Source: Kiritimatiellota bacterium (lineage in GTDB: Bacteria > Verrucomicrobiota > Lentisphaeria > Oligosphaerales > JAADHN01). Taken from it: 64,000 nucleotides of DNA. Shown in pieces: positions 19,591 to 46,060 of the stretch (position 1 is its first letter; each line of letters starts with the position of its first letter). The DNA lies in the NCBI GenBank assembly GCA_013151865.1, contig JAADHN010000138.1:84246-148245 (forward strand), written 5' to 3'. Made by a program: the position numbers and the translations under genes. The notes under the pieces were generated by a model that worked only from the letters and a program-made list of their open reading frames with translations, had not been told where the DNA came from and made no database searches.

Positions 19591-19894
19591 GGGCTGGTTC
19601 CTCCGGCCGAAGTGTGCAATGCATCCTGGAAACGTCCGGGCGGCGATGTCATGCAGCCGGGAAACGGACAGGGCGGACCCCCCACCGCGTTCTCTGCGAC
19701 GTCTGCAAGATCGTGCAAAGCGACCCGGTCGCCAGCGACCGTATCTCGGCAAAGGTTCGGCGTCAAGTCGCGTCGGCCGGGGCAAATCCGAACCGTGTGC
19801 GCCCGCCGCCAGGGGTTGTGGAGGATTGCCGGCCCCGGACCGCCCCGCTCCCCCCGCAGGGCAGTCCGGACGCATCAAGAACTCTTGGCAAACG
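19591..19894. other. gene-free stretch upstream of the DUF4838 gene
   Basis: This 304-base segment holds the SD of the DUF4838 gene and no recognisable coding sequence. I did not find a convincing promoter pair for that gene. Confidence 0.4.
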
Positions 19895-20213
19895 AGAGCC
19901 CGGCCACAAAGCAAGGGCCCGTGACCGCGCGAGAAAGAGTGCGATTTTGGGTGAGATTTCGTTCCCCCCGAACGGGACCCGGCGTTGCTGCCCTCGACGG
20001 TAATCCCGCTCGGCGAGACGCGGAAAACGGCGAAAGATCGTCCGAACGCGCCGCGCCCTACCGCCTTCGTCCCACGCCTGCGGGACTCTGGCGGACAAGT
20101 CGGATTGGGGCGGAAGGCGGCCTGCGCCCCCAGCCGATCCCGCTTGGCGGGAGAGACGGGTCCGCCTCAGGCGGACAGCGATTCGCCCTTGGCGAAGAGC
20201 AACAACTCCCGCG
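19895..20213 (-). repeat. dispersed intergenic repeat B, copy 2
   Basis: An inverted copy of the block at 3743-3888. On the minus strand the shared order is CGCGGGAGTT, TCGCTGTCCGCCTGAGGCG, AACGAAATCTCACCCAAAAT and TTGTGGCCGGGCTC. About 170 bases (roughly 19990-20160) are absent from copy 1. It sits just upstream of the first pseudopilin promoter. Confidence 0.7.
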
Positions 20214-28195: not shown

Positions 28196-31129
28196 TCAGC
28201 GGCCGCAGCAATGTTTGTACTTCTTGCCGCTGCCGCACGGACACGGCTCGTTGCGCCCGATCTTCGGTCCGGCACGGCGCACGGTCACCGCCTGCGGAGG
28301 TCCCACCGGGGCCTCCCCGCCCATGACTCCCTCGAACTGAGCGAGCTGGTCGTGCACCTCCTGTGTGGGAAACTGCTGCATCAACTGCTGGAAAGACGTC
28401 AACGTCGTTGCCGATCGGAACATGTTCGACAAGACCTGCTCATGCACGGTCCCCATGAGTTCGGAGAACATGTTATAGGCTTCCTGCTTGTACTCCACCA
28501 GGGGGTCGCGCTGGCCGTAGGCCCGCAACTGAATGCCTTGCCGCAACGCGTCCATGGCATAGAGGTGCTCCTGCCAAGTCTGATCGATGGCGTTCAGCAT
28601 GATTTGCCGTTCGATCCAGCGGAGACTCTCGGGATCTTCGTTTTTCTCCTTCAACTGATAGGCTTCGTCGATCCGGTCGACAATCCGGGAGGTCAAGACA
28701 GCCGGGTCCCATTCGCCCTCCCACTGCAAATCCTCTTCCGTGAAGCGGATCGGAAAAGTCTTCTGGAGCCATGCCAACAGCTCGCGACGATCCAGGGGGG
28801 CTTCCTTTGTCCCGCCGGCCGCGGCAGCCTCGACCTGCGCGGAAACGGCCGTGTAGGCAAAATCGAACAGCAACCGGCGAGGATCGTCCGTCAGCAGGAC
28901 GTTCTTGCGAAGCCCGTAGATCACTTCGCGTTGTTTGTTCATCACGTCGTCGTATTCGAGCGTACGCTTTCGAATGGCGAAATGCTGTTCTTCGACCCGC
29001 CGTTGTGCCCGCTCGATCGACTTGTTGAGGAGGGGGTGCGAGAGTTCCTCCCCTTCCTGAAGGCCGAGTTTCTCCATGATACCCGCCACCCGGTCCGAAC
29101 CGAATAGGCGCATCAAGTTATCCTCTAGTGATATATAGAACCTAGAGGATCCGGGGTCTCCCTGTCGTGCACACCGGCCGCGAAGCTGGCGGTCGATGCG
29201 GCGGGCGTCGTGCCGTTCACTGCCGATGACGTGCAAACCGCCCAGATCCGTCACGCCGGGACCGAGCTTGATATCCGTGCCGCGTCCGGCCATGTTTGTG
29301 GCAATGGTGACGCTGCCCTTCTCCCCGGCCCGGGCGATGATCTCGGCCTCATGTTCGTGGTTTTTGGCGTTCAGGACGTTGTGCGGAACGCGCCGCCTCT
29401 GCAGTAGGCGACTGAGGACCTCGGACACCTCCACCGAAACCGTGCCCAACAGCACCGGCTGTCCGCGACGGTGACAGTCCTCGACCTCGGCGACGATGGC
29501 ATTGTATTTTTCCCGCTTCGTCTTGTAAATACGGTCGTTGTGGTCCATCCGGATGCAAGGCTTGTTGGTGGGGACGACCACCACGTCGAGCTTGTAGATT
29601 TCTTTGAACTCGGTGGCCTCGGTTTCCGCCGTGCCGGTCATGCCGGCGAGCTTCTCGTACATCCGGAAGTAGTTTTGGATGGTGATCGAAGCCAATGTCT
29701 GGGTTTCGCGCTCAATCTGGACGCCTTCTTTGGCTTCCAACGCTTGGTGCAGGCCTTCGCTGTAGCGGCGTCCGGGCATCAGCCGCCCGGTGTACTCATC
29801 GACGATGATAACCTTGTTGTCCTGCACCACGTAGTGCACGTCTTTCTCGAACAGGCAATACGCCCGCAACAACTGCGAGATATTGTGGATCACCTCACTG
29901 CGTGACTCGAAAAGCTCCTGGGCCTCACGGTGCTTGCGCGCCTTCTCTTCGTCGGACAGAGAGGAAGTGTCGATCTCGTGGAATGCAGTACCGATGTCCG
30001 GGATCGTGAAGGCGTCGGGTTCGTCCGGGCTCAGGTGCTTCCGGCCCTTGTCCGACAACTCCGCCTCGCCGCCCCGTTCGTCGATGGCGAAATAGAGGTT
30101 TTCCTTGACCTCCTGGAGGAAGCCTCGATTGTTGTCGCTGTACATCTCGAGTTCTTTGCGGTCCACCAACCGGCGGATAGCCGGGTCTTCCAGCAGACGC
30201 ATCAGTTGTTTCTGCTTAGGCATACCGAGGCGCACAGTGGCCAGTTTGAGCGCTGCCGCCTCACGTTCTTCATTGCTGGCGTCCTCCCGGGTGAGCACGG
30301 AGCGGGCCTCCTGCACCATGCGGGCGCACAGCAGCGATTGACGCCGAAACAATTCGGCCACCATGGGCTTGAGTTTGTCGTACTTGTGAGTCGAAACGGT
30401 GGCCGGCCCGGAGATGATCAACGGCGTGCGCGCCTCGTCGATGAGAATGCTGTCCACTTCGTCGATGATCACGAAATAATGGTCACGCTGGACCATTTCC
30501 TCGGGCGACATGGCCATGCCCGCGTCTCGGAGATAGTCGAAACCGAACTCGCTGTTGGTGCCGTAAGTGATGTCGCAATTGTACTGCTCGCGCCGGGCGG
30601 CCGGGTCCATCGAGTTCTGGATACAGCCCACGGTCAACCCCAGCAACTCGTACACCGCCCCCATCCACTGGGCGTCCCGACGAGCAAGGTAGTCGTTTAC
30701 CGTGACGAGCTGACAGTTCCGCCCGGTCAACGCGTTCAGGTAAAGCGGCAAGGTGGCCACCAAAGTCTTGCCCTCGCCGGTGGCCATTTCCGCAATGCCG
30801 GCACGATGCAGCACGATGGCGCCGATGATCTGCACGTCGAACGGGACCATGTCCCACACGAGGGTATGCCCGGTGACCTGAATCTCCCGCCCGACGAGGC
30901 GGCGGCAGGCGTTCTTCACCACGGCATAGGCCTCGCATAGGATGTCGTCGAGGGTCTCGCCCTGCCGCACCCGAGCGCGGAACTCATCGGTCTTGGCCCG
31001 CAACTGGTCGTCGGTCAACCCTTGCAGATCATGTTCGATCCGGTTGACCTCCTCGACCAGGGGCCAGAGTTTTTTCAGCGTCCGCTGATTGCGGGTGCCG
31101 ACGATTTTTTTGAGTACCCATTCCAACAT
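28196..31129 (-). CDS. secA: protein translocase ATPase SecA
   Basis: A 977-residue SecA, the motor that drives preproteins through SecYEG. Walker A (MATGEGKTLVATLP) is near residue 100 and the DEAD-type Walker B (VDSILIDEARTPLIISG) near residue 210. GTVSVEVSEVLSRLL and TNMAGRGTDIKLGPGV mark the second nucleotide-binding half. The C-terminus is the zinc-binding SEC-C motif (NEPCPCGSGKKYKHCC), which binds SecB or phospholipid. It is longer than E. coli SecA (901), with extra residues in the regulatory-helical region. The start ATG has only a distant GGAG. It is convergent with the sulfatase gene and 183 bases downstream of pyrE. Its partners yajC and secDF are at 59.3-62.4 kb. Confidence 0.97.
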   Translation of the reverse strand: MLEWVLKKIVGTRNQRTLKKLWPLVEEVNRIEHDLQGLTDDQLRAKTDEFRARVRQGETLDDILCEAYAVVKNACRRLVGREIQVTGHTLVWDMVPFDVQIIGAIVLHRAGIAEMATGEGKTLVATLPLYLNALTGRNCQLVTVNDYLARRDAQWMGAVYELLGLTVGCIQNSMDPAARREQYNCDITYGTNSEFGFDYLRDAGMAMSPEEMVQRDHYFVIIDEVDSILIDEARTPLIISGPATVSTHKYDKLKPMVAELFRRQSLLCARMVQEARSVLTREDASNEEREAAALKLATVRLGMPKQKQLMRLLEDPAIRRLVDRKELEMYSDNNRGFLQEVKENLYFAIDERGGEAELSDKGRKHLSPDEPDAFTIPDIGTAFHEIDTSSLSDEEKARKHREAQELFESRSEVIHNISQLLRAYCLFEKDVHYVVQDNKVIIVDEYTGRLMPGRRYSEGLHQALEAKEGVQIERETQTLASITIQNYFRMYEKLAGMTGTAETEATEFKEIYKLDVVVVPTNKPCIRMDHNDRIYKTKREKYNAIVAEVEDCHRRGQPVLLGTVSVEVSEVLSRLLQRRRVPHNVLNAKNHEHEAEIIARAGEKGSVTIATNMAGRGTDIKLGPGVTDLGGLHVIGSERHDARRIDRQLRGRCARQGDPGSSRFYISLEDNLMRLFGSDRVAGIMEKLGLQEGEELSHPLLNKSIERAQRRVEEQHFAIRKRTLEYDDVMNKQREVIYGLRKNVLLTDDPRRLLFDFAYTAVSAQVEAAAAGGTKEAPLDRRELLAWLQKTFPIRFTEEDLQWEGEWDPAVLTSRIVDRIDEAYQLKEKNEDPESLRWIERQIMLNAIDQTWQEHLYAMDALRQGIQLRAYGQRDPLVEYKQEAYNMFSELMGTVHEQVLSNMFRSATTLTSFQQLMQQFPTQEVHDQLAQFEGVMGGEAPVGPPQAVTVRRAGPKIGRNEPCPCGSGKKYKHCCGR

Positions 31130-31312
31130 TTGGTATCGATAGGCTCCGGTTCAGAGGCCGTGACGGTCATTTCCGGGGCGCAACGCGGGCCGCGTCACAC
31201 CCAACGAGTGACGTCCGCTCCGGACATGGGAACAAAGGCGCACCGGCCCGGGTCGGGAAGAACTGCCGCCGCCGGAAAGCAATTCGAGCGCCCATCGCGT
31301 CGAGGCGAAGCT

Positions 31313-31882
31313 TCATTTGGAGCCGGGCTTTTCGACCGGAACCCCCGCCCGGCACAGGGGACATTTTTCAGGGACGTACAATGCCAGTTCGAGTCGCGCC
31401 AGGCTCTCCACGGGAACACCGAGCGCAACATCCCCGCCACTGCGGTCGACCAACACCGCAACCCCGACCGGAACGCCGCCCTGCTCTCGGACCAATTCGA
31501 GGGTCTGTCGGACCCGACCGCCCCGGGTGATGACATCCTCGGCGATCAAAACGCGCTCCCCGGGATTCACCTCAAAACCGCGCCTGAAGACCATGCCTCC
31601 CGCGTCGTCTTTCTCCGCAAAAACCGCCCGGACCCCGAGGGCCCGTCCCACCTCCTGGCCCACCACAATACCGCCAACGGCCGGGGAGACGACCAGCTCG
31701 ACACGGGCATTGGCGAAACGTTTCGCCAAATCACCGCACAAACGCGCCGCCAACCCAGTGTGCTGCAACAGCAGCGCAGCCTGAAAATACCGGTCGCTGT
31801 GGAGGCCGCTGCGCAACAAGAAATGTCCTCGGCGCAACGCATGGGTTTGGGAAAAAACTTCGAGGGCTTCAGCTTCGGTCAT
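31313..31882 (-). CDS. pyrE: orotate phosphoribosyltransferase
   Basis: A 189-residue PyrE, converting orotate and PRPP to orotidine 5'-phosphate in pyrimidine synthesis. The ORF track gives 251 residues; I take the ATG at 31880-31882 (MTEAEALEVFSQTHALRRGH), where family similarity begins. The PRPP-binding loop is VLIAEDVITRGGRVRQT near residue 125. The flexible catalytic region FAEKDD is near residue 98. The C-terminal tail CPLCRAGVPVEKPGS is a cysteine-containing extension typical of this PyrE subgroup. A modest SD (GGGAAG) lies further upstream than usual. secA follows 183 bases downstream on the same strand, possibly in the same transcript. Confidence 0.93.
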   Translation of the reverse strand: MTEAEALEVFSQTHALRRGHFLLRSGLHSDRYFQAALLLQHTGLAARLCGDLAKRFANARVELVVSPAVGGIVVGQEVGRALGVRAVFAEKDDAGGMVFRRGFEVNPGERVLIAEDVITRGGRVRQTLELVREQGGVPVGVAVLVDRSGGDVALGVPVESLARLELALYVPEKCPLCRAGVPVEKPGSK

Positions 31883-32380
31883 AGCTATGTCGCTTCCCTT
31901 CGCAGGCACCGAGCCGGCAGTTGTCTGTCCGGCGCTCGTGGAGACTCCAGTCGTCCAGGTGGACTCGACCGGGAAAGCCAGGCAAGAGGCCCCGTGGGAG
32001 GCCACGGCTCGCGTCATTTCAGGAAACAGGGGACAATTCCCCTCGACAGACACCTTGACTAACGCCAAAACCCGATTACGCTACGTTCCGGATCGGCTCT
32101 CCCTGTCCCCCGTCGGCCGGGAGAGAAATGTCTGCCCGGAATCGAGGGGCGCGGGCGGGGAATGCGGCGACCTCGCACAACATAGCACGCAAACGCCGCA
32201 TGTCTATGAAAGCCCCCCATTGGCGTCCGCCCGGAACTTCCCCGGCGGGTCGATCTCCGCCCGGATTGTGACCGGCAAGAGAACTCGGGGATGCATACCG
32301 GCGCTTCGGATTCCCTAAACGGAGTGCGGAGCGCCGTCCCGATGGGGTGGAAAGAATTGCAGGGACAGGAGGCCTTAGGA
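31883..32380. other. divergent intergenic region between pyrE and the first coiled-coil gene
   Basis: These 498 bases must hold promoters for both directions. On the plus strand TTGACT (32055-32060) with a 16-base spacer and TACGCT (32077-32082) is a weak candidate, 300 bases before the coiled-coil gene. I see no convincing pair for pyrE and no riboswitch-like fold that I can name. Confidence 0.35.
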
Positions 32381-34714
32381 ATGGAATACGTACGAGGCAT
32401 GGCGAGCTTTGTGCTGGCTGCAGTCCTGTGGGGGGGGCTTCTAGCGGCGATGCCGAGCCGGGGCGGCCACGAGGCCGCCCGGGCCGAATGGATGACCGGC
32501 TATCTGAAAGTTGAGGAGGCCGGTCGGGCCGAGCAGAACGGGCAAGCCGTGGTGGCCCTGGATCTCTACCGCCAGGCACTCAAAGTGTTCCAAGACGTGA
32601 AACGCAAGTACCCGAATTGGAACCCTGCCCTGATCAGTTACCGACTCAGCTTTTGTCAGGCCCGCATCGAGCGATTGGGCAGCCAGGTGGCCACCGCCCC
32701 CGAAAACCTCTCGAAGCCGGACCTCGTCATGCGCGTGAAACAGCTCGGTGAGCAGTTGGACGGCCTCCGCAAACAAGTTGCCGAACTCCAAACCAAGTTC
32801 GATGCCGCCACCCGCAAGGCACAAGAATTCGCGGATAAGGCCGCCGCGTTCGACAAGCTGAAGAAGGAATCCGAGAAAACTCGCAAAGAACGCGACGAAC
32901 TTCGCACTAAACTCGAGACGGTTCAGAAGGAACTTACCGACCTCCAGGAGAAGGTCAATGGCTTCAAAAAAGCCGCTGCAACCGGAAGCGCTGAAGCTAA
33001 AAAAGCCCAGAAAGCAGCCGCACGGATCCAACAGGAACGAGACACGCTGGCAACGGAACTCGCCCAATTGAAAAAAGAACGTTCGGAGGTTGCGGATAAA
33101 GCGAAAACGCTCGAGAAAAAAAGCGACCGACTCGAGCGTCGGCTTGTCGCCGCCGAACGGGACCTCGAAAAAAAGAGTGCGGCGCTCCAGACTGCGCTTC
33201 GAGACCTCGACAAGACCCGAGACGATCTCGCCAAACTCCAGAAGAGCTTCGATTCGTTGAACCGGACCTACCTTGATTACCGCACTCGCACGGAAAAAAA
33301 TATCGCAGAGCTTGAACGAGACCGGGATGAACTCGTCCAACTGCGTCCATTGCGGAAGGAACTCGAGAGCAAGGTTCGGGAAGCGGCCCGACTGCAAGTG
33401 CAACTGCAAAAGACTCAGGAGGAATTGCGGCAGAAGACGGAACTGGTCAAGTCGCTGGACCAACAGAACAAGGAACTGTCCGACCGCTTGAAGGATGCGA
33501 CCGGGGCCAAGACGCGAAACGCGGCGGAACTGACCACGCTGCGAGACCAGGTCGACAACCTCCGGCTCCAGTTGGCCAAGGCCAACCAGGCCCTGGCCGA
33601 CAAAACCATGGAAGTCGTCCGGCTTCAGGACCAAGTGGCTGCTCTGCAGGCCGCCGCGGCCAAGAATGCCGAGAGAATCAAAGCCCTCGTGAAAGATCGC
33701 GACAGCTCTCGCGGGAGCGCGACCGCGGCGCGGGAGCAGATCCAGGCGTTGACTGCTCAAATCGAGGCACTGCGCAAGGAAGTTGCCGACCTGAAAGCAG
33801 CCGGTGCCAGGGATGCCAAGAAAGTCCAGTCACTGGAACAGCAGCTCGCCGTTTCTCGACAGGCCGCCACCGACGCCGGGGCGCGGGTGCAGGCGCTGAC
33901 CGCCGAACTCGCGGCGAAGACCAAAAAAGTCGCGGCGCTCGCGGCGCTGGTGGAGCGGACTCGCGCCAAGGATATTGACGCTCTCGAGAAACAGATTCTG
34001 CAGCGCACTGCCGCTCTGAAAGAAGCCAACACGCGCGTGACCCGCCTTGAGCAGGCCTTACGCGCAAAAGAAGAAATCGAGGCCCGGCGTGTGGCGGCCG
34101 AAAAGAAACAGCGCGAGCAGGAAAAGGCCGAGCGACTCAAGGCACGGCAAAAGATCGAGAAGATCCACTCCCTGCTCGAAGCCGTGGCCAAGGCCGAAAA
34201 AAGCCGGAGCATCGAGCAGGCGATCTGGAACTGCCGGAAAGTCCTGGAACTCGACCCGGAGAACACCACCGCCCTCACTCGCCTCGGCATCCTGCTGGTC
34301 CGACGGGGCGAAGACGCCGAGGGAGAAAAAGTCCTCTCCCGGGCTTTCAAGAAAGACCCCGACAACGTTCAGGTTCTGCTGCATCTGGGCGCCGCACTCG
34401 TGCGGGAACAGAAAATCGACGCGGCCATCGCCGCCCTGTCCAGGGCCGTGATGCTGGACCCCAAAAATGCGGACGCACACAAAACGCTCGCGGTCGCTCT
34501 CAGTTCCCTCGGATGGAACAATGCGGCGGAAACGGAACTGCGGCGGGCGTTCAAGGCCCGGGAAGATGCCCAGACTGCGTACAATCTCGCCGTGCTGCTC
34601 GCCACTCAGGATTCGCCCCGGTACGAGGAAGCCGCCCAGTGGTACGCCAAGGCTAAGGCGTTGGGGGCCAAACCGGACAAGGGGCTGGAAGAAGTCCTGC
34701 GCCAAAAAGAATGA
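32381..34714 (+). CDS. exported coiled-coil/TPR protein, paralogue 1
   Basis: A 777-residue protein of unknown function. The start ATG at 32381 follows AGGAGG by 8 bases; the ORF track adds 30 shadow residues. A signal or anchor segment (MASFVLAAVLWGGLLAAMP) comes first. A helical-hairpin domain of about 75 residues follows (AEWMTGYLKVEEAG ... YPNWNPALISYR). Next is an almost uninterrupted coiled coil from about residue 110 to 600, rich in Glu, Lys, Gln and Ala. The protein ends with three or four TPR units (RKVLELDPENTTALTRLGIL ... SRAVMLDPKNADAHKTLAVA) and a closing motif YNLAVLLAT ... WYAKAKALGAKPDKG. The same architecture recurs in the next gene. It is likely periplasmic or cell-surface, with the TPRs as a protein-docking end. 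No enzymatic motif is seen. Confidence 0.75.
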   Translation: MEYVRGMASFVLAAVLWGGLLAAMPSRGGHEAARAEWMTGYLKVEEAGRAEQNGQAVVALDLYRQALKVFQDVKRKYPNWNPALISYRLSFCQARIERLGSQVATAPENLSKPDLVMRVKQLGEQLDGLRKQVAELQTKFDAATRKAQEFADKAAAFDKLKKESEKTRKERDELRTKLETVQKELTDLQEKVNGFKKAAATGSAEAKKAQKAAARIQQERDTLATELAQLKKERSEVADKAKTLEKKSDRLERRLVAAERDLEKKSAALQTALRDLDKTRDDLAKLQKSFDSLNRTYLDYRTRTEKNIAELERDRDELVQLRPLRKELESKVREAARLQVQLQKTQEELRQKTELVKSLDQQNKELSDRLKDATGAKTRNAAELTTLRDQVDNLRLQLAKANQALADKTMEVVRLQDQVAALQAAAAKNAERIKALVKDRDSSRGSATAAREQIQALTAQIEALRKEVADLKAAGARDAKKVQSLEQQLAVSRQAATDAGARVQALTAELAAKTKKVAALAALVERTRAKDIDALEKQILQRTAALKEANTRVTRLEQALRAKEEIEARRVAAEKKQREQEKAERLKARQKIEKIHSLLEAVAKAEKSRSIEQAIWNCRKVLELDPENTTALTRLGILLVRRGEDAEGEKVLSRAFKKDPDNVQVLLHLGAALVREQKIDAAIAALSRAVMLDPKNADAHKTLAVALSSLGWNNAAETELRRAFKAREDAQTAYNLAVLLATQDSPRYEEAAQWYAKAKALGAKPDKGLEEVLRQKE

Positions 34715-34851
34715 CGCGCCGTCGAGCGCGCGACAGCGGCGGGCGGCACGGAAAAGAGAACCGGCATGCCCCCTGTCGGCGCACTGAACCGACAGTGACC
34801 GTCCCGACTCCGCACTCGGGGTCGGATCAGCCTGTGCGGTGGGCCGTCTGA

Positions 34852-35124
34852 CCTGAACTTTTCATGAAGCCGACAGTATTGTATCGATACACACTGGACG
34901 GAGAACGGTTGCGGACGATGCTGCGACAGTACTCGATTCCCGGCGCTTGCGTCGAAAGGACGGCAATGCGCTTCACCCGCCGGGCGCGCCGCCTGCCTGT
35001 CGGGCCGTAGCCTTGGCGAAGGCCGGCACTGCATCTGATTTCGCGGCGCAAGTTGGAGCGGTCACCACACCGGCGTCTTTCCGCGAAACCATATGCGGCA
35101 CAGACCACGCGTGAATAGTTCAGG
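34852..35124 (-). mobile_element. MITE-like element A, copy 2 (273 bp)
   Basis: An inverted copy of the element at 3979-4326, with the same ends CCTGAAC and GTTCAGG and most of the interior. It lacks the 65-base internal segment around CCGCCTCAGGCGG. Its flanks are CTGA and CTAA, not an exact TTAA pair, so this is probably the older copy with a decayed target duplication. It sits between the two paralogous coiled-coil genes. Reading through it on the minus strand gives the same shadow peptide (MQCRPSPRLRPDRQAARP) as copy 1. Confidence 0.72.
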
Positions 35125-35266
35125 CTAACGTCAATTCCGTGTTCTGCCTGAACGCATCTTCCCTGAACGTCGTCCGTGCGTCGGCGGACGCCGCCTGTCC
35201 CAAGTCGAGGCGGGGCCGGCTCGCGGACCGTTCAGCCGGACCGGTTTCGAGGGAGTGTATGCGGTC

Positions 35267-38200
35267 ATGAACCGATCTCACCGCCGGTATCCACCACGCC
35301 TCGGCCCCCGGGGCCTCCCGGTCCTCTTCCTCATACTGTTTTCTCTGCCGGCGTCTCTCCGCCTCGCGGCCGACGAAGCCGACGACGCCCGTCGCGTTTG
35401 GCTTACCGGCTACGTCAAGCTCGAAGAAGCCGGCAAGGCGGAGAGCGACCGAAACTACACGCTCGCCATCGATCTCTACCGGGGCGCCCGGGAAGTCTTT
35501 GCCAAGGTTCGGACGCGCTATCCCGCCTGGAACCCCGCTCTGCTCGATTACCGCATCAACTATTGTGCCGCCCGTGTACGCCGCCTCGAGGCCGCATTGG
35601 CCGCGAACCGGAACACCTTGAACCGGGACCAATTGCTGCAACTCACCCGAAAACTGCAGGAGAGACTCAAGACCCTCACCGTGCGGGACCTGGAACTCAA
35701 GAAAAAGCTTGAACTGACCTCGGAAGCCCTGGACCGGGCCCGGGCCGAGGCGGCCCGCGGCGCCGCTGCCAGTGAAGCCGCGTCCAAAGTGGTGGCGGAA
35801 CGCGATAATCTGAGACAACTTTTGCAGGCGGCCGAAAAAAAAGCCGATGACTTGGCCGCCCGTCTGCAACAGGCCGCCCGGAACGCGGGACTGAGAAAAA
35901 AGATCCGGGAACTGCAGCAGGAACGGGACCTGGCCGTTGCCGCCCGAAAACAGTTGAGCGACGCCCTCGCCGAGCAGCAGAAAAAACAAGCGAAAACGGA
36001 GACCCGGTTGAATACGCTCAGCGCCCGGTATACGCAACTCCTCACCGAGAGTCGGGCGCGACGGAAAGAACTCGCCGACGCCAAGGCCCTCGCCGCCGAG
36101 AATCGAACGTTAACGGCTCAACTCACCGGGGCCCTTGCCGAGATCGAACGCCTGAAGACGGACGCAAACACCGCCCGGGCCCGCCTGGAAGCCACCGAGG
36201 CAGAGCGTGCGGCCCTTCAGAAGAAGCTCGATGAAATCGGGAGACTCCGCGCCCAGCTGGCAGCAACCGAGAAGGCTCGGGCAGAACTGAAGGAACGCGT
36301 GGCGGAACTGGAGGCAGGGGCCCGAGACGCGAACGGAAAATTCGCCGACATCCGACGCGAAAACGCCCGCTTGGCAGAGATGACCAATGACTTGCAGGCG
36401 CGCATCGACGAATACAAGAAGAAACAGCTCAAAACCAAAGAGGAGGTCGCCGCGGTACGTGCCGGTCTGGAAACCCGGCTCGCGGCAGCAGTGGCCCGAA
36501 GCGAAGTACTCGAAGCCGAACGCCGCCAATTGAGTGCCCAACTCGCCGACGCTCGAACTTCCCTCGTCCAACTGCGCGACGCCGTCACGAAAAAGTCGAA
36601 ATCGGCGCCGGTTGCTCAAACTCCTTCCCAAGAGCCCCCACTTACCCAATCCGATATCGAGACCCGACTCACCACCATGTCTCGAGAACTGAAAACCGCA
36701 CGCCGCGATCTCGGACTCGCCCGAAAAAACCTGGCCGAATCCGCCGCACGCCGGGCAGAACTCGAACGGGAAATCCGAAAACAGGCCGACCAACTCAAGA
36801 CCCGGCAGCAGACGATCTCCGATCTTCAACGTGATTTAACGGAACAGAAGCAGAAAACCCTCGACCTCGCAACGGCGACCGACGCCGCCAGGAACCAGAA
36901 CCGGAAACTGACGGACCGGGTCACAGCCCTGCAAACCGAAAACCGGAAAATCGCCGACGAACTCGCACGCGAGCGCACGCAGCGTGCCGCGGATAACGCC
37001 CGGCTCCAAAGCGCGACAAAGCGCATCGAGGAACTGACGCCCCTGGTGACAGCCGTTACCGACCACAAGCGCCGACTCGAAGAGCAGAATGCGCAGATCG
37101 CTGCATTGCGGAAGCAACTCGCGGACCGGGAAGCCCAAGTCAAGGCACTCGAAGCACGTCTCGCCGACAGCGACCGACGGAGCGCCGTCCAGACAGCCAC
37201 GGTCGAACAGCTCCGCGCCGAGGCGGCAGGGCTCCGGGCAAAACTGGCCGGGGCCGAGCGACTTGGGCGCCGCCATACAGAACGCTTGTTGAAAAAACAG
37301 CTTGATGATGTCAGCAAACAACTGGATGAAAGCCGAAAAAAGAACCATGACCTGAACGAGCGTTGCCGAACCCAGCTCGCTCTGCTGCAGAAAAACGAAA
37401 AATCCGCCCGCGCCCTCGAAAAAGCTCGAGAAAACGCCGAAAAAGAGCTGGCCCTCAAGACCGCCGAATTGGCCACAGTTCGGGACCGATTGAAACGGCT
37501 CGAAGAAGACGCGCACGTAGTGGACGGACTGAAAAGCAGTCTTGATGACGCCGACGCCGACCTGACCCAGACCCGCCGGAAGCTTGATGCTGCACTCGCG
37601 AACCTCGAGCACCTTCGGCAACTCCAGACCGACACGGCCCGGCAGCTCGAGGACAGCAAGAAGACCGTGCACCAATTGGAGCAAGCCCTTGTGGACGAAC
37701 GAGACCGGCGGATTACCGGAAACGACGCTCTGATGGAACAAGTCCGACAGCTTACCGACCAATTGGACACCGAACGCGCCCGGGTGTCCGCGCTGCAGCT
37801 CGCCCTGCAGCAGCGGGACCGAAAAGAAAGGGCCGCCTTCACTCCCGAACACCACGGCCCCTCGACCGATGCGGAACGGAACACGCGCCGGCGCGACGAA
37901 CGTTTTCTGGTGCGGGGGTATCTCCGCCAGGCGCTCGAGGCGGAACAAAAGAACCGAAACGAAGCCGCGGTCTGGAATTACCGAAAAGTCCTCGAATACG
38001 ATCCCGGCAACCGTCAGGCCCTGAAACGACTGGGACTCCTTGCGGCACAACACGGGGACGACGCCGAGACCATCCGTTGCCTCACTCGGGCCTTTTATGC
38101 CGACCCGGACGACGGCGACACGCTGCTGGCCCTCGGGTACGCTCTGGTGCGCGAACAAAAGGCCGATATGGCCGTCTCCATGCTGGCCCGGGCTGCGGCC

Positions 38201-38473
38201 CTGTATCCGGACAACGCCGCCATCCAGCGGAGTCTCGGCGTGGCCTACAGCAGCCTCGGGTGGTCCGATGCCGCGGAGGCCCAGTTTCGGCGTGCTCTCA
38301 GACTGAATAAGAAAGATGGCGAGGCAGCCTTCAATCTCGCCGTACTCCTGGCCACACGCCGTCCCAACGAACTCACCGAAGCGCGCAAATGGTACACCAC
38401 GGCGAAGGAACTTGGAGCACAAGCCGATCCCGGTCTCGACGCCCTTTTTGCGGCCCGGCCGACCAACCCCTGA
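35267..38473 (+). CDS. exported coiled-coil/TPR protein, paralogue 2
   Basis: A 1068-residue paralogue of the gene at 32381. I start it at the ATG at 35267, 11 bases after GGGAG; the ORF track uses a GTG four codons earlier. A signal peptide is present (LPVLFLILFSLPASLRLAADEA). The N-terminal helical domain matches paralogue 1 closely (WLTGYVKLEEAGKAE and YPAWNPALLDYRINYCAAR). The coiled coil is about 290 residues longer (residues about 110-880). Three to four TPRs follow (RKVLEYDPGNRQALKRLGLL, ARAAALYPDNAAIQRSLGVA), and the end motif is FNLAVLLAT ... WYTTAKELGAQADPG. So ends are conserved and rod length varies, as expected of a spacer or tether. The next gene is an exported repeat protein 87 bases on. 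Confidence 0.75.
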   Translation: MNRSHRRYPPRLGPRGLPVLFLILFSLPASLRLAADEADDARRVWLTGYVKLEEAGKAESDRNYTLAIDLYRGAREVFAKVRTRYPAWNPALLDYRINYCAARVRRLEAALAANRNTLNRDQLLQLTRKLQERLKTLTVRDLELKKKLELTSEALDRARAEAARGAAASEAASKVVAERDNLRQLLQAAEKKADDLAARLQQAARNAGLRKKIRELQQERDLAVAARKQLSDALAEQQKKQAKTETRLNTLSARYTQLLTESRARRKELADAKALAAENRTLTAQLTGALAEIERLKTDANTARARLEATEAERAALQKKLDEIGRLRAQLAATEKARAELKERVAELEAGARDANGKFADIRRENARLAEMTNDLQARIDEYKKKQLKTKEEVAAVRAGLETRLAAAVARSEVLEAERRQLSAQLADARTSLVQLRDAVTKKSKSAPVAQTPSQEPPLTQSDIETRLTTMSRELKTARRDLGLARKNLAESAARRAELEREIRKQADQLKTRQQTISDLQRDLTEQKQKTLDLATATDAARNQNRKLTDRVTALQTENRKIADELARERTQRAADNARLQSATKRIEELTPLVTAVTDHKRRLEEQNAQIAALRKQLADREAQVKALEARLADSDRRSAVQTATVEQLRAEAAGLRAKLAGAERLGRRHTERLLKKQLDDVSKQLDESRKKNHDLNERCRTQLALLQKNEKSARALEKARENAEKELALKTAELATVRDRLKRLEEDAHVVDGLKSSLDDADADLTQTRRKLDAALANLEHLRQLQTDTARQLEDSKKTVHQLEQALVDERDRRITGNDALMEQVRQLTDQLDTERARVSALQLALQQRDRKERAAFTPEHHGPSTDAERNTRRRDERFLVRGYLRQALEAEQKNRNEAAVWNYRKVLEYDPGNRQALKRLGLLAAQHGDDAETIRCLTRAFYADPDDGDTLLALGYALVREQKADMAVSMLARAAALYPDNAAIQRSLGVAYSSLGWSDAAEAQFRRALRLNKKDGEAAFNLAVLLATRRPNELTEARKWYTTAKELGAQADPGLDALFAARPTNP

Positions 38474-38478
38474 TCCCA

Positions 38479-38503
38479 CTTTGCCAAATGCCAAAAGGCA
38501 AAG
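38479..38503 (+). other. small hairpin in the leader of the exported repeat-protein gene
   Basis: CTTTGCC (38479-38485) pairs perfectly with GGCAAAG (38497-38503) over an 11-base loop, six bases after the upstream stop codon. No T-run follows, so it is not a standard terminator. It may stabilise or trim the transcript between the two genes. Confidence 0.3.
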
Positions 38504-38560
38504 GCCCGGCTCCCGGCGACGTGTCGGCGGGGCCGTAATCACAGGGAGGAGGAGAAGAAG

Positions 38561-41500
38561 ATGAATGCAGTGTGGTCCCGGCCGGATCCGGATTGCCTGC
38601 GGATGGCTCTGGCACTGCTCGGGGCCGTGGCGGGGGTGGTCGGCGTCCGGGCCGATTACGCCGGTGAAGTCGCCAGCCATGTCCAGTCTGTGGGCATCTA
38701 CAAAGGATACACCCACAGCCCCGGCGCAAGCACCCCCACCGTGCAGGTCGAGGCCGACGTCGAGATCGAAACCGATGTCACGGTAAACTCGATCATCGTT
38801 CAACCGCCCCCGCCCGCAGCAGCGTTCCTCCTCGAACAGGAGCGGCGGAGAGGCCCCGTCCGCCAGGGAAGAACGGCCTGGGGCTGGGAACGGCACGGGA
38901 CCGCGGCCCTCGATGCCTTGCCCGACGGGGATTACACCGTGACCTTCACTTTCACCGACGGTTCGAGCGGTGCCGTAAGCGTGCCGTTCAGCCGCGAGAA
39001 CGGCACTCCACTCCAGTTTCCCGACCAAGTGCCGAGCTTGAACGGCGCCACTGCGGAAAAACTGATTGTCGGCGGACCGGACGTGACTTTCTCATGGATT
39101 GCGTGCACCGACCCCAAAGCCACCGGTGTCCATTTCGGGATCGATACCGACTTCGGGATCCTGGAGACCGACCCGGAAATCCTGCGTTCGCTGCAAGAGG
39201 ACACAGAGGCCCTGCACCGGTTCGACCCGTCGCCGGACTTGCCGGCCGGCGTGTTCGATGCCGCATTGGCCTTTGCCGACTTTCGGGCCGGAGAGACCGC
39301 CGAAGGCATCGGATTCAAAGTGGCCAAGTACCGTGAACAGGTCTACTGGCTCGTGGTGAGTCAGCCGGACGCCGATCTCCAGCAGAATCTCTTGGGAGTG
39401 AACCTGTTCCTGGGAGCAGGGACCGCGAGACGCAGCGATGCGCTGGACTTCCACGCCCAAATCCGGACCAGCGCGCAGGTCGAAACCGTGGCCATGAGAG
39501 TCCCCAACTACCGGGCGGACGAAAACGAACTCCGGGGCTGGCAATGGACGACCGAGGCGGACGGTTCCAAAACCTGGACTTTCGACCGCACCTTCGCCTC
39601 GCTCCAAGATTTCCTCGACCAAAGCGGGTTTGGACCCTACGGCGTTTATGTCCAATGGAGTGACGGGTACAGCGCAGTGTCGCGCCTGACACATGTCTAT
39701 TTCTCTGCTGCCGATGAATCCGGCGCGCCACTCGAGATTCCGCAGCAGACCCCGAACTTCCTCGCACCGGACCCGGGGGCCTTTCTGCCTTCGCCCGTCA
39801 TGTTTCAATGGGATGCGTGGGACCCGACGGACCCGACTTATTCGAGCGACCTCGCCGGCATCCGCCTCACCGTGGGCCCGACTCTCGATCCGCAAGGCTC
39901 GGTCGATCAGTTCCTCGACAAGACGGCGTGCGTTTACGGCCCGCAGACTTTCTCGAACGGCAACTACCGTGCCGCCCTCTATTTCGCCCAGGAGCGCCAA
40001 AGCGTCACCGGCGATGGCATCCCGTTTTTCGGCGCCGCCTTTCGCACCGCCACTCGCGATTTCTCCGTGGGCCAAACCGGTCGGCTTCAGGTCCACATCG
40101 AACCCGCCGCGAGTCACGCCCTGGGCGTCGGATGGAGTATCGACAACGGTGTGTCCTGGCATGCCCCCGATGCCACAGTGTCCCTGCCGCCGGGGGATTA
40201 TAATGTCGTTTTCAACGGCCCCAACTGGAACCTGCGGCCCCCGGCCGATCTACCCGTAACGGTAACGGCCGACACACTTACCGAGCAGACTGCGACATAC
40301 GAAAAAACGGTCCGAACACTCAACTTGGCGCTGCTGGTCGAAAATGATCGGAACACCGTGGACTTTTGGGCGGAAACGGCCCCGGACGTCGTCGCCGTCC
40401 GCCTGCAGACTGCCAACGGCAAGATCGTCGACTTGGCCCCGGACAACGGCGGACAACGAACCGAAACCGTCGATTGGAGGTATGCCGGCAAAAACTTGAC
40501 CGATTTCTCCGAGTACGGCGACGGCCTTTGGACAGTCTTTTTCACCATCGCAGACCAGTCGGAGCACGCGGTCAACGTCCTCTTCGCACACGCCGACGGC
40601 CCCTCCCTCCAGCTTGCTGCCCGGGCGCCGCAGCTCTCGCAGCCCGCAACGGCTCACGGCCGCGCGAGAATGATGGGACCGGATCTCACATTTCAATGGA
40701 CCCCGTATACCGGTGCGGATGCCAATATGGTCCACATCGAAATCGACAGTCGCGGCAGGAACAACTTCGAGCAGGACCGTTGGACCGAACTCGAGCGAAA
40801 GTTCGAGGCGGAAATCGGGGCCGGCGCGGGGGCGGACCCGGGCGCATGCACGTTCCTCGGTGTCCCGGGGGGGGTGTACTGGGCCGGGTTCTATTTCGGC
40901 GACGGCGAGAAAGACGTCACCCCGGAATTGATCGAAACCTTTGTCGCCAAAGGCCGGGGCAGCATCTTCGAGATCTTGGTCGTCGAACCGGTCGAGCCGC
41001 TGCAAGACGTCCTGGCGGAAGTTCGAATCCGGCGGTTAAAGCTTACTTCCGTGAACGGCTCCGAGTCGGGACTCTTCCGGGCCGAGGTCGCCCCCGCAGT
41101 CGGCGCCAACATCGCCGCCCTGCAACTCCGCCCGCCGGAACCGGCCGACGAATGGCTCGCGCTCGACTGGAACGGACAGAGCGGAACATGGAACGCGCAA
41201 GTGACAGGAACGGCCGCCGACGTGGCGCAACGCTTCCCCGGAGGCTTTTACGACCTCGAAGTCCGCTACAACGACGGCCGCAGCCTGGTTTGCCGCACTC
41301 TGGGCGTGGAGGCCGTCCGGGACGACCTTGCCGACCTGCCGGACGTCGCCCAAACGCCGGAGTTGACCGCCCCGGTCGGGCAGACGACCGCCCCGGTCGA
41401 TTTTGCTTGGGCGCCCTGCACGGATCCGGTCGTCACGGGGATCGTGTTCCGGGTCCGGACCACGGGCGAAACCGAGTGGCAGGGGGAACGGGCCTTGACG

Positions 41501-42130
41501 GCAACGTCCGTGGGGACCTCCGGAATGCCCCTGGCGCCGTCCGCTTATGTGGGTCGCCTGGTTTTCCTGAACCAACATGCATACAATGTCTCCCGCGGCA
41601 TCGCTGCGGACGTGGCCTTCGGCCGAGCCGTGGACTTCCCGTTCACGGTTGCCGGTGCGGTGTCAACTCTCGACGCCGAATTCGAATTGCGCCCGGGCTG
41701 GAACCTCATTTCGCTCCCGCTGAGCCCCTATCCCGAAACAGACCCGGAGGTGATCTTCGCGGGCGTCAAGCAAGGCCCTGTTTGGACATGGAACGCCCAA
41801 CTCCAGACGTTCGAAATCGCCACCGTGCTCGAAGGAAAGCGCGGCTACTGGATCTGCGGCCCGGGGACACGTGCCGCGCACGTCGCCGTATCCGGCACCG
41901 TCCTGCCGGATGGGATCGTCCGTCTGGCCCACGCCTGGAACCTCGTGGGGGCCATACTCGGGGCCGGAGCGCAAGTTGACGTTCCGCCGGGACGCTCCAC
42001 CTGGGGTTGGGACGGGCGGCAGTACCGGCCTGCAAACGTTCTGGACTACGCCAAAGGATACTGGATGTATTGCCCCATCCCCGGCGGCGAAGACGTGAAC
42101 CTGGGCGACCGCCGGTCCACCCATCCCTGA
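38561..42130 (+). CDS. very large exported repeat protein with C-terminal GWNLISLP modules
   Basis: A 1189-residue protein of unknown function, with a strong SD (GGAGGAGGAG) and a signal peptide (MALALLGAVAGVVGVRADYA). A beta-sandwich-type unit recurs four times. Its core line reads VTFSWIACTDPKATGVHFGI (near 175), FQWDAWDPTDP ... AGIRLTVG (near 413), FQWTPYTGADANMVHIEIDS (near 709) and VDFAWAPCTDPVVTGIVFRV (near 946). Each is preceded by a proline-rich linker such as PQQTPNFLAP. A PEGA-like segment (GVGWSIDNGVSWHAPDATVS, near 525) interrupts the second and third. The C-terminal 150 residues are two GW modules (RPGWNLISLPLSPYP near 1041, then HAWNLVGAIL), shared with the CARDB-type protein at 4601. 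It follows the two coiled-coil genes and may belong to the same surface structure. Confidence 0.72.
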   Translation: MNAVWSRPDPDCLRMALALLGAVAGVVGVRADYAGEVASHVQSVGIYKGYTHSPGASTPTVQVEADVEIETDVTVNSIIVQPPPPAAAFLLEQERRRGPVRQGRTAWGWERHGTAALDALPDGDYTVTFTFTDGSSGAVSVPFSRENGTPLQFPDQVPSLNGATAEKLIVGGPDVTFSWIACTDPKATGVHFGIDTDFGILETDPEILRSLQEDTEALHRFDPSPDLPAGVFDAALAFADFRAGETAEGIGFKVAKYREQVYWLVVSQPDADLQQNLLGVNLFLGAGTARRSDALDFHAQIRTSAQVETVAMRVPNYRADENELRGWQWTTEADGSKTWTFDRTFASLQDFLDQSGFGPYGVYVQWSDGYSAVSRLTHVYFSAADESGAPLEIPQQTPNFLAPDPGAFLPSPVMFQWDAWDPTDPTYSSDLAGIRLTVGPTLDPQGSVDQFLDKTACVYGPQTFSNGNYRAALYFAQERQSVTGDGIPFFGAAFRTATRDFSVGQTGRLQVHIEPAASHALGVGWSIDNGVSWHAPDATVSLPPGDYNVVFNGPNWNLRPPADLPVTVTADTLTEQTATYEKTVRTLNLALLVENDRNTVDFWAETAPDVVAVRLQTANGKIVDLAPDNGGQRTETVDWRYAGKNLTDFSEYGDGLWTVFFTIADQSEHAVNVLFAHADGPSLQLAARAPQLSQPATAHGRARMMGPDLTFQWTPYTGADANMVHIEIDSRGRNNFEQDRWTELERKFEAEIGAGAGADPGACTFLGVPGGVYWAGFYFGDGEKDVTPELIETFVAKGRGSIFEILVVEPVEPLQDVLAEVRIRRLKLTSVNGSESGLFRAEVAPAVGANIAALQLRPPEPADEWLALDWNGQSGTWNAQVTGTAADVAQRFPGGFYDLEVRYNDGRSLVCRTLGVEAVRDDLADLPDVAQTPELTAPVGQTTAPVDFAWAPCTDPVVTGIVFRVRTTGETEWQGERALTATSVGTSGMPLAPSAYVGRLVFLNQHAYNVSRGIAADVAFGRAVDFPFTVAGAVSTLDAEFELRPGWNLISLPLSPYPETDPEVIFAGVKQGPVWTWNAQLQTFEIATVLEGKRGYWICGPGTRAAHVAVSGTVLPDGIVRLAHAWNLVGAILGAGAQVDVPPGRSTWGWDGRQYRPANVLDYAKGYWMYCPIPGGEDVNLGDRRSTHP

Positions 42131-42185: not shown

Positions 42186-44426
42186 ATGACACAATCCGAC
42201 CCACTACTCGAACCTGCCCTGATGTGGATGTGGAACGGCCGACCGTCGCGCCGGGGGATCCGCCGACAGTTGGACGCCTTCCTCCGCAACGGCATCCGGG
42301 CAATCTACATCCACCCCATGCCGGCCGATTTCCGGCCCCATGACTTCCATGGCGGCATGGAGGTCGAGTATCTCTCCACGCAATTCTTCGACTGGATCGC
42401 GTTCGCCGCCGAGGAGGTCCGCCGCCGGGAAATGCTCCTCTGGCTCTACGACGAAGGCGGCTGGCCCAGCGGCGTCGCCGGAGGACGCGTCGTGGCGGAG
42501 GACCCCGCGTTCGGGGCGTGGACCCTGACGCGCCGAGGAGGTGTCGTGGCGGCACGGCAGGAATGCGGCTTCAACTATCCCGACCTGTTGAACCCCGACG
42601 CCACGAGCTGTTTCATCCGCCACACCCACGAGCGCTACCGCCAAGCGGTGGGCCATCTGTTCGGCACGACCATTCCCGGGATTTTTACCGACGAACCCAG
42701 ACTCCTCGGGCGCGTGGGAACGGATACCGTTCCATGGTCGCCCCGCCTTCCCGAGGCATTCGAGCAGGACCATGGAATGCCCCTCGACAATGTGTTCGAG
42801 TACCTGTTCGAAACCGCCCCCCGCCACATGCCCGCCCAGCGACGATACCTCGCCACCGTGAGCCGTCTCATTGCCGAATCCTATTACGCGCCCCTGCGCC
42901 GGTGGTGCAACGACCACGGCCTGCTGTTCGAAGGACACCACACAGGCGAAGACGATTTCGCGCGACACGGCGTCCACTTCGGCGATTTCCTTGAACAGGC
43001 CCGGCACTACGACATCCCGGGGATCGACGCCATCTGGCGCCAAGTCTTCCCCGGACAGAGCGGCGGCAATTACGTCAGCTTGGCGCCCTCTTCTGCCTGG
43101 ATTCGAGGCCGCCGGATTGCCCTGAGTGAGAGTTTCGCAGTCTATGGCGCCGGCCTGACGCTCGAACAAATGCGCTGGGTCGCCGCTTTTCAACTGGTCC
43201 GAGGCGTAAACAAGTTCGCGTTCATGGCCGCCTTGTTCTCGGTCGCCGGGGCACGACGCATCTGCACATGTCACGATATCGGCCCGCAGGACCCCCGTTG
43301 GCTCAACTTCGACCTGTTCGTCGAATTCGTCCGACGGGCCGCCAATTTCACACTTTCGGGGCGACCTCGTCCGACAGTCGGCGTCCTCTACCGCATGGAA
43401 CTGGTCGCCCCGGACCGTGCCGACGTCTTCACCAGGGAACACGAAACCTTCTGCGACCGAATCCTCGACGGACTGAATGCTCTCATGTTCCTTACTCCCG
43501 GGGACTTGAAGACGTCTGGAGTCCGCGCCCTGGCTGTTCACCACGACGCACCGCTGAACGAGGTCGAACAACGCGCAATCGCCGCGGCGCAGATCGACGT
43601 GCTCAACCCCGAAGCCGATTGGCACGCGGCGCGGTACAGTCTCCTCGCCCCCCTCGACTGTCCCCCCGGGGTACGCGTGCTCCCACTTGAAACCGAGCAA
43701 GGCTTGAATCTCCTGTTCTTCAATCAAACCGAACGGGAAGTGGCGCTCGAGTTTCACAGCGAGGTCGAGATGAGTGAATTCGTCCTCGACGACGAACTGA
43801 CCGCCGCCATCCACCCGCCGCAACGCCGCAACGACCGTGTGGCCCTGCGTCTGCTCCCGTGGCAGATGCGCGCCTTGGTCGCAGGGGAATGTCCGCCGCC
43901 GCCGTGGCAGCCCCTCGACGACCCTTTTCCGCTCGAGGACGACTGGACGGTCCGCGAAACCGAGAGGTACGTCATCGGAAGGACGGTCCGCCGCGAACCG
44001 ATCTTGCAGCACCCCCGCTCGTGCGATTTGACGGACTATGCCCGCGCCGAGCCCGAATTCTCAGGGACGCTCGAGTATGAATGCCACTTCGACTGGCGCA
44101 TCGGAAATGACGAGAGGGTCGTTCTGGATCTCGGTCGAGTGCACGATGCAGCCGCGCTGGAACTCAACGGCATCCGCGTGGGCCGCCGGGCTTGGCGCAC
44201 GTACTGGTTCGACGCCACCGACGCATTGATCGACGGCGCCAACACACTGCGCGTTTGCGTCACAAACACACTCGCCAACCAGTGGTTGCGCACCGCGCTC
44301 CGGCAACGGGACAACACACGGTGGCCCAATCCATATCGCAGACGCGTCCAACCGTTCCTCGAAGACAGTCGTCGCGCCGGCTTGCTCGGCCCTGTCACGC
44401 TGCGCCGGTACCGATCCCCGACGTGA
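42186..44426 (+). CDS. GH106-like glycoside hydrolase (alpha-L-rhamnosidase type)
   Basis: A 746-residue protein resembling the GH106 / PF17132-type hydrolases that release rhamnose or related sugars. The N-terminal barrel half reads LMWMWNGRPSRRGIRRQLDA and LLWLYDEGGWPSGVAGG (near residue 78-95), the latter a hallmark of this group. GIFTDEPRL near residue 158 is a candidate acid/base region. The C-terminal 150 residues form a GH2-type sugar-binding sandwich (VVLDLGRVHDAAALELNGIR, then NTLRVCVTNTLANQW). There is no signal peptide, so it would act on imported oligosaccharides. The SD is weak (AGGCG). It starts 55 bases after the preceding gene on the same strand, so it may be co-transcribed, but the functions do not obviously match. 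Confidence 0.68.
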   Translation: MTQSDPLLEPALMWMWNGRPSRRGIRRQLDAFLRNGIRAIYIHPMPADFRPHDFHGGMEVEYLSTQFFDWIAFAAEEVRRREMLLWLYDEGGWPSGVAGGRVVAEDPAFGAWTLTRRGGVVAARQECGFNYPDLLNPDATSCFIRHTHERYRQAVGHLFGTTIPGIFTDEPRLLGRVGTDTVPWSPRLPEAFEQDHGMPLDNVFEYLFETAPRHMPAQRRYLATVSRLIAESYYAPLRRWCNDHGLLFEGHHTGEDDFARHGVHFGDFLEQARHYDIPGIDAIWRQVFPGQSGGNYVSLAPSSAWIRGRRIALSESFAVYGAGLTLEQMRWVAAFQLVRGVNKFAFMAALFSVAGARRICTCHDIGPQDPRWLNFDLFVEFVRRAANFTLSGRPRPTVGVLYRMELVAPDRADVFTREHETFCDRILDGLNALMFLTPGDLKTSGVRALAVHHDAPLNEVEQRAIAAAQIDVLNPEADWHAARYSLLAPLDCPPGVRVLPLETEQGLNLLFFNQTEREVALEFHSEVEMSEFVLDDELTAAIHPPQRRNDRVALRLLPWQMRALVAGECPPPPWQPLDDPFPLEDDWTVRETERYVIGRTVRREPILQHPRSCDLTDYARAEPEFSGTLEYECHFDWRIGNDERVVLDLGRVHDAAALELNGIRVGRRAWRTYWFDATDALIDGANTLRVCVTNTLANQWLRTALRQRDNTRWPNPYRRRVQPFLEDSRRAGLLGPVTLRRYRSPT

Positions 44427-45004
44427 TCCGCCGTGTGCACCGCGCCGCTGCACCGCCGGACGGTCATGGACGAACCGTACGTTGGCGCGGTCGGGAGTTC
44501 AACCGATCTTCGATTATGGACGGACCGGAAACTCCAGGCCGTCCCTCTGCGGATCGTTCACCACCCTCCGAGAACCGCCGGACGAGAGCCGCCGCACGAC
44601 AACGTCGGTCGCCCCCGCCCTTTCTCCCATTCCCGACCGCCTCCCCCAGGCACCCGAGCAATTTCCCTCTGGTGTGCCTCCCTTGAACCCCGAAACAAGG
44701 GAGATACCTTTCCATTGCCCAGGGCTGTTTCATCCTCCCGGCCGCAGTGTTTCTCAGGAGGCGTCGTGGACCAGCTCGGGCCGCACTGCCGCCCGGCCGG
44801 GGACCGTCCGAGCCACTTTGGCGTCCTCGGAAGTGAGTGTGAGGCAGCCCTGTTCTTTGCCTACTGTCGAGAAGGCGGAAACCGCTGGACGCCCGGGACC
44901 ACCACATGACTCTGTGCTGCGTAGGAATCGGGCCGCACAGAGCACGGCGGAAGTGGTCCCCCCGCACCCGGACCGGGCTCCGCCCCAAGAAGGAGTGTGC
45001 TTTC
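44427..45004. other. gene-free stretch of 578 bases, nothing recognised
   Basis: Long shadow ORFs exist on both strands, but none has a plausible composition or known motif. The only supported signal is the SD (AAGGAG) just before the URO-D-like gene. Confidence 0.45.
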
Positions 45005-46060
45005 ATGAGTCGCCAGTTGGCCTTGGATACCATTCTGTTACGGCCCACGCCCCGCCATGCTCACACGGAATACAGCCTCAATTATCACCCGGACTACATT
45101 CGAAAGAAAACCGGGTTCGAGCCGGGCTCTCTCGAAGCGACCCGGGCCTTGTATGGATTGTGGGGGATCGATTTCCTGTTCAGCGTCAACGACGGTCTGC
45201 GCGGAAATTGGGGGGCGTACGGACGCTCCAGCGACATGGGCCACGCCGAATACGCGGCGGACGGCAGCGATCAGCGCCAACCTCGCCAGTGCCCGTTCTC
45301 GACCCCGGAAGAAGTCTGGGCTTTCGATGCCGTGGCCGAGTACGGACTGCCGGACCGCGCGGAACAGATCCTGGCCTACGAACAGGCGTTTCAGGATGCC
45401 CGGACCCGCTTTCCGGATCAATTGAGCACGGGTGGATACTACAAGACGATCGTGTCCGGGGCCATCCAGGCATTCGGCTGGGACATGCTCCTGCTGGGCG
45501 CCAGCGACCCGGGCAAGATGGAAAAAGTCTTCGACAGCCTGTTTCGCCGTACGCTGTTTCACATGGAGTGCTGGGCCGAGACGAGCGCGGAAGTGATTAT
45601 TCAGCACGACGATTTCGTCTGGACCGCAGGAGCTTTCATGCACCCCGACATTTACCGGCGTGTGATTATCCCCCGCTATGCGGAATTGTGGAAGCCGCTG
45701 CACGCCGCCGGCAAAAGAGTGCTCTTCTGCTCCGACGGCAACTTCATGGAATTCGCCGAAGACATCGCGGCCGCGGGCGCCGACGGGTTCATTTTCGAGC
45801 CGTGCAACGATTTCGAGTTCATGGTGGACCGCTTCGGCGAGGACATGGTCCTGATCGGCAGCGCCGTGGACTGCCGGGACATGTCCTTCGGGAGCTGGGA
45901 GACCGTTCGCGCCTCTCTGGACCGGACCTTTGAACTGGGCAAGCGCTGCCGCGCACTCGTGCTGGCGGTCGGAAACCACCTCCCGGCCAACATTCCGGAC
46001 GAAACAATGGACCGGTATGTCGAATATCTGATGGCCAATTGGGATCGCAGTCCGAACTGA
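45005..46060 (+). CDS. uroporphyrinogen decarboxylase (URO-D)-fold protein
   Basis: A 351-residue member of the URO-D superfamily, which includes haem-pathway HemE and corrinoid methyltransferases (MtaA, CmuA). I use the ATG at 45005, preceded by AAGGAG; the ORF track adds 33 residues. C-terminal blocks FCSDGNFMEFAEDIAAAGAD and FEPCNDFEFMVDRFGE resemble the corresponding parts of methyltransferase-type members, and HDDFVWTAGAFMHPDIYRR is the typical central block. The N-terminal HemE signature (PVWxMRQAGR) is absent, so it is unlikely to be HemE. PVC genomes carry many such paralogues. The reaction is unknown. No corrinoid protein gene is nearby, which weakens the methyltransferase reading. 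Confidence 0.75.
   Translation: MSRQLALDTILLRPTPRHAHTEYSLNYHPDYIRKKTGFEPGSLEATRALYGLWGIDFLFSVNDGLRGNWGAYGRSSDMGHAEYAADGSDQRQPRQCPFSTPEEVWAFDAVAEYGLPDRAEQILAYEQAFQDARTRFPDQLSTGGYYKTIVSGAIQAFGWDMLLLGASDPGKMEKVFDSLFRRTLFHMECWAETSAEVIIQHDDFVWTAGAFMHPDIYRRVIIPRYAELWKPLHAAGKRVLFCSDGNFMEFAEDIAAAGADGFIFEPCNDFEFMVDRFGEDMVLIGSAVDCRDMSFGSWETVRASLDRTFELGKRCRALVLAVGNHLPANIPDETMDRYVEYLMANWDRSPN

Follow-up and report, generated by a model that had tools for sequence, protein, structure and literature searches.

MIT domains (Pfam PF04212), carried by Vps4/SKD1, spartin, USP8 and the archaeal Vps4-like ATPases, are three-helix bundles, and a fold like that of the heads described here has so far been found in membrane-sorting proteins of eukaryotes and archaea. 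The hairpins of MIT, TPR, Tom20 and ribosomal S20 resemble one another (PMC5074805), and many ESCRT components are reported to have homologues in archaea but not in bacteria (PMC10936438). In the window, by which we mean the whole stretch of 64,000 nucleotides analysed here, two neighbouring genes (genes 1 and 2, Table 1) encode proteins whose heads are predicted to form the same three-helix bundle, with weak matches over the full length of the MIT profile. Compared with MIT proteins, they are exported-type bacterial proteins without an AAA ATPase domain, they fall below the curated cut-off, and the heads of their family have diagnostic features of their own, the YPxWNP linker and an arginine in helix 3. 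Their tails belong to the TPR clan and form a TPR superhelix, with scores above the Pfam cut-offs.

Regarding the overall plan, genes 1 and 2 are like CpoB (YbgF) in being exported and in having a coiled coil followed by TPRs. CpoB has a short trimeric coil, is encoded in the tol-pal operon and, to our knowledge, lacks an MIT-like head. One could argue that the pair works as a CpoB-like regulator of peptidoglycan synthesis together with Tol-Pal, given this common plan of signal, coiled coil and TPR and a genome with no CpoB over the cut-off and a Pal-type protein at 123.8 bits (cut-off 125.35). We regard this as highly improbable, since the tails give no tol_pal_ybgF match, the coil is many times longer, the tol-pal neighbourhood is absent and the head has no counterpart in CpoB. 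Identity with CpoB/YbgF itself was rejected: genes 1 and 2 do not match TIGR02795 at E<=1, no protein of the genome exceeds its cut-off, and the neighbours are secA, pyrE and gene 3.

The heptad coils also give database matches to SMC/Rad50, restricted to the coil; SMC identity was rejected (84.6 of 567 bits, no ATPase domain). The same applies to MamA and PilW, whose NCBIfam equivalog cut-offs were missed (58 of 200 bits and 38 of 154 bits, respectively), and to the Amuc_1098-type PilQ, as genes 1 and 2 have no secretin; one of 60 heads weakly matches NF042912, the model of that protein (E 1.8e-4). The sequence-only reading of this DNA had recognised no described system, and indeed no Pfam or NCBIfam family describes the composition of genes 1 and 2. 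We found no description of the head family in the open-access literature either. With moderate confidence, we read genes 1 and 2 as a tandem short and long pair from a widespread, undescribed family of exported, elongated scaffolds or adaptors, to which gene 3 is unrelated.

Table 1. Features of the locus, in window positions.
Feature	Position	Strand	Remarks
Gene 1 (upstream, shorter paralogue)	32381..34714	+	777 aa: export signal, MIT-like head, coiled coil, TPR tail
Gene 1 head	32459..32695	+	residues 27-105; predicted three-helix MIT-like bundle (AlphaFold2, Foldseek; Pfam MIT below cut-off)
Gene 1 coiled coil	32693..34180	+	about residues 105-600; heptad power
Gene 1 TPR tail	34142..34711	+	Pfam TPR_11/TPR_17/TPR_19 above cut-off
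Gene 2 (downstream, longer paralogue)	35267..38473	+	1068 aa; architecture as gene 1
Gene 2 head	35369..35605	+	47% identity with gene 1 head
Gene 2 coiled coil	35603..37906	+	Pro cluster at residues 448-458, near mid-rod
Gene 2 TPR tail	37904..38467	+	Pfam TPR match; 48% identity with gene 1 tail
Gene 3	38561..42130	+	1189 aa exported repeat protein; neighbour, judged outside the system
Gene 3, four related units	38651..41650	+	residues about 31-275, 276-500, 586-800, 806-1030
Gene 3, C-terminal all-beta domain	41654..42112	+	GWNLISLP ... GYW ... WNLVG
secA and pyrE-type phosphoribosyltransferase	28196..32068	-	divergent neighbours; kept here in many genomes of the order

Architecture of the tandem paralogues

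The signal segment, helical head, TPR tail and variable coil that the sequence-only reading had seen in both genes were confirmed. The heads, helical and about 80 aa long, are 47% identical across 84 columns and have TGYxKxEEAGxAE and YPxWNPAL in common, and the identity of the tails includes NLAVLLAT and WYxxAKxLGA. TPR_11 scored 51.0 bits in the tail of gene 1 (Pfam cut-off 26.8), and TPR_17 scored 43.1 bits in gene 1 and 39.7 in gene 2 (cut-off 24.4). Between these ends lie 501 aa in gene 1 and 778 aa in gene 2, a measured difference of 277 where about 290 had been given; conserved ends (47-48% identity) around a variable rod are thus borne out. Heptad periodicity exceeded the maximum of 200 shuffles in both proteins (2.49 vs 1.55 in gene 1, 1.59 vs 1.43 in gene 2), and the coil of gene 1 is 39% charged with 0.6% Pro. 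A self-repeat search of genes 1 and 2 found none, so internal tandem duplication was rejected as the origin of their rod length.

Genes 1, 2 and 3 all begin with a hydrophobic export-type segment, that of gene 3 being judged by eye. For the pair, the export proposed earlier stands as a prediction, with a hydrophobic segment directly before the head in all 85 family members read and a lipobox in one of them.

Predicted fold of the head

Structure prediction, which had been suggested as a check, returned a confident MIT-like three-helix bundle for the head. The AlphaFold2 model, from a 60-row alignment, has a mean pLDDT of 89, with 96-98 over most of the bundle, and its helices span residues 7-32, 36-56 and 62-85. 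When the model was compared with the PDB by Foldseek, the ten best matches were all MIT domains. Most Vps4-type MIT domains superposed with an rmsd of 1.1-1.6 Å over about 71 residues, and the archaeal Vps4-like MIT domain 2w2u did so at 1.2-1.3 Å over 71-72 columns, with a TM on target of 0.86-0.88. The Foldseek E-values for the head are only 0.03-0.2, and ribosomal S20 from ribosome entries is also among the matches.

Profile comparisons gave weak similarities to the same domain. PF04212 matched 30 of the 60 heads, with 4e-7 as the best value, and each TPR model matched fewer. The head of gene 1 scored 21.4 bits, below the cut-off of 30 bits; none of the 48 genomes of the order had a PF04212 match above the curated cut-off. 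Against PDB sequences, the head profile reached Vps4/SKD1 MIT chains at E 3e-4 to 1e-3; the E-values for engineered TPRs were lower still, an effect of their summed repeats. A single-sequence search of the PDB with the head returned nothing significant. According to these results, the head is predicted to be a three-helix bundle of the MIT fold. Given the scores below the cut-off and the Foldseek E-values, the similarity does not prove homology with MIT, and a generic TPR-like bundle is the alternative. It is possible, though doubtful, that a true MIT domain was adopted in this phylum, in exported form, to serve as docking head in a widespread envelope scaffold whose rod is adjustable in evolution. 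If so, a module that binds helices and is otherwise associated with the remodelling of membranes by ESCRT would be working outside the cytoplasm.

Distribution of the family and its genomic neighbours

We built a head profile from the two window heads, then one from 60 sequences, and searched 289 sampled genomes of the phylum. In its own 6.2-Mb genome the two-head profile found only genes 1 and 2 at E<0.1, and it matched relatives throughout the phylum. Among the matches listed, the 60-sequence profile placed the family in 203 of the 289 genomes, a slightly generous count that may nevertheless miss some, and in 41 of the 48 genomes of the order. The match was better than E 1e-8 in about 185 of the 203, and a few of the weakest matches resemble ordinary TPR proteins. 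Within the class, nearly every sampled genome carries the family, and head genes occur mostly in one or two copies per genome. The only named isolate among the relatives, Oligosphaera ethanolica, puts the window into its own order, and the phylum is by that name presumably Verrucomicrobiota of GTDB. A scan of 85,462 species with peptide patterns, which are narrow, gave matches in Lentisphaeria only, and tblastn of plasmids with the head and of phages with gene 1 gave no match.

The 85 members read, with genes 1 and 2 included, measure 196-2654 aa (median 926). A TPR tail is usual, and several members keep the head and coil without it. In three genomes of one genus (G232, G024 and G021; loci L138, L139, L146 and L148), a long protein with head, coil and TPRs is accompanied by a short one, encoded separately, in which a low-complexity tail follows the head; further genomes have a long copy with a tail and, elsewhere, a short tailless copy. 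Three head-gene copies each, of about 380-660 aa, were found in the small genomes G266, G072 and G042 (L064-L067). The longest members, L040 of G055 (2654 aa) and L039 of G052 (1910 aa), have no profile-recognised TPR tail. ORF length was the sole criterion in gene calling, and many of the relatives are draft genomes.

In many genomes and families of the order the head gene lies divergent beside pyrE and secA, as in the window, and the tandem pair is kept in several of the families. The shorter copy was upstream in all 11 tandem pairs read, and further pairs in the ORF table of the order likewise have it first. In a tree of heads and tails the upstream and downstream copies separated with two changes, and none of 500 shuffles gave a value as low. 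On the simplest reading of these sequences, the short and long copies are probably separate lineages that arose from an old duplication. Elsewhere in the class, the neighbours of head genes are hflX and other housekeeping genes. We rejected a conserved operon, as the only recurring neighbours are secA/pyrE within the order and hflX with other housekeeping genes elsewhere in the class; both contexts are housekeeping and indicate no pathway. Glycan-type enzymes are abundant around the locus (window positions 26672-28123, 42186-44426, 44906-46060 and 16030-19914), and the genes of this kind nearby encode a sulfatase, a protein with a weak GH2-like match, a URO-D-type protein and a DUF4838/GH67-type protein.

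Regarding gene 3, it starts 87 bp past the end of gene 2 on the same strand and has a good ribosome-binding site, as a member of a three-gene envelope system would. The role of outer partner that the earlier reading had assigned to it is barely credible, as gene 3 is absent from all the other head-gene loci examined. A head search of the kind proposed at that time, run here within one phylum, found the pair kept together in several families of the order and the downstream repeat gene not kept with it. The sole relative of its N-terminal part (residues 17-529) lies on a short contig, number 460 of G318, and the head gene of that genome is on a different contig.

The four-fold repeat described earlier in gene 3 was recovered, with Z values over shuffles of 18.4 for units 1 and 3, 12.3 for units 1 and 4, 11.1 for units 1 and 2 and 7.7 for units 2 and 4; pairs 2-3 and 3-4 are weak. 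The beta character of the units is a suggestion of the earlier reading; the C-terminal domain is all-beta in its AlphaFold2 model (mean pLDDT 92). Neither gene 3 nor this domain has a match in Pfam or NCBIfam, and the domain model found no convincing fold relative in the PDB (best TM on query 0.28). The domain, the last ~150 residues, consists of two similar halves and has a second copy in the window at 7130-7588. Its own genome has 25 matches to it, spread over about 22 genes, and in the order it also occurs on giant ORFs, the longest of 13,709 aa. In most carriers it stops 2-17 residues before the stop codon, and it may serve in sorting or anchoring. It is common in the order and in G046, a genome without the head family, and is absent from the many head-bearing genomes listed for the class; that the two are distributed independently speaks against a common function. 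Judged from these comparisons, gene 3 is probably a lineage-specific surface-type protein, a mere downstream neighbour of the pair.

Rod length and possible modes of action

Across the family the spacers range from 43 to 1243 aa (median 597). In several pairs of relatives whose ends are 76-81% identical the spacer differs by 167-563 aa, and in the closest species pairs it is nearly constant (651 and 651; 185 and 185). At 0.1485 nm per residue, the straight coils would measure 74 nm in gene 1 and 116 nm in gene 2. An ordinary periplasm is about 20-30 nm wide. The sequence-only reading had suggested a tether or ruler across the periplasm, and a fixed-length link from the inner to the outer membrane would agree with the export signal, with the conserved ends around a rod and with the near-constant lengths in the closest species. 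By comparing the coils with the periplasm, which they would exceed several times, and considering length shifts of hundreds of residues between relatives, the wide family range and the lack of a visible membrane anchor at either end, we conclude that such a ruler is improbable.

Coil indels of at least 7 residues are concentrated towards mid-rod, at a mean distance from the centre of 0.173 vs 0.25 for a uniform placement (P 0.0005), and their lengths are multiples of seven somewhat more often than expected (P 0.002-0.02). These patterns of rod length fit what is expected if the heptad register matters and the total length of the coil is loosely constrained. The mid-coil clustering would also suit an SMC-like hairpin, in which the coil folds back, head and tail come together and the rod projects sideways, with a tip that tolerates indels; the Pro cluster of gene 2 could mark such a tip. 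Mid-rod indels are, however, also expected from stronger constraint beside the conserved ends, and gene 1 has no comparable break, so we consider the hairpin rather unlikely. Long heptad rods between conserved end domains, widespread and often present as more than one paralogue, could also build a periplasmic polymer that resembles intermediate filaments and supports cell shape. This is decidedly unlikely, since no filament family of Pfam or NCBIfam matches and ends of the TPR and MIT-like kinds point to docking more than to assembly head to tail.

The elongated scaffold or adaptor that we favour takes its export-type segment, the fold class of its head and its heptad coil from sequence or prediction. 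The proteins would be exported by Sec, then oligomerise through the coil and act as elongated adaptors along the cell wall or the outer membrane. The head would dock one partner, by analogy with MIT domains, which are helix-binding modules, and the TPR tail could dock a second one, with the coil setting a loose, not a fixed, distance between them. Short and long paralogues might then give two reaches or mixed assemblies. As several members have no TPR tail, a two-ended adaptor would not be universal in the family.

About two thirds of the genomes sampled in the phylum, and nearly all those of one class, carry the family, which has no description in Pfam or NCBIfam. The predicted MIT fold makes its head directly testable, and the long series of rod lengths in nature amounts to an experiment, already set up, on the importance of spacer length. 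Should the family indeed be an envelope scaffold, it is probably important for the organisms that carry it, which include gut and environmental species.
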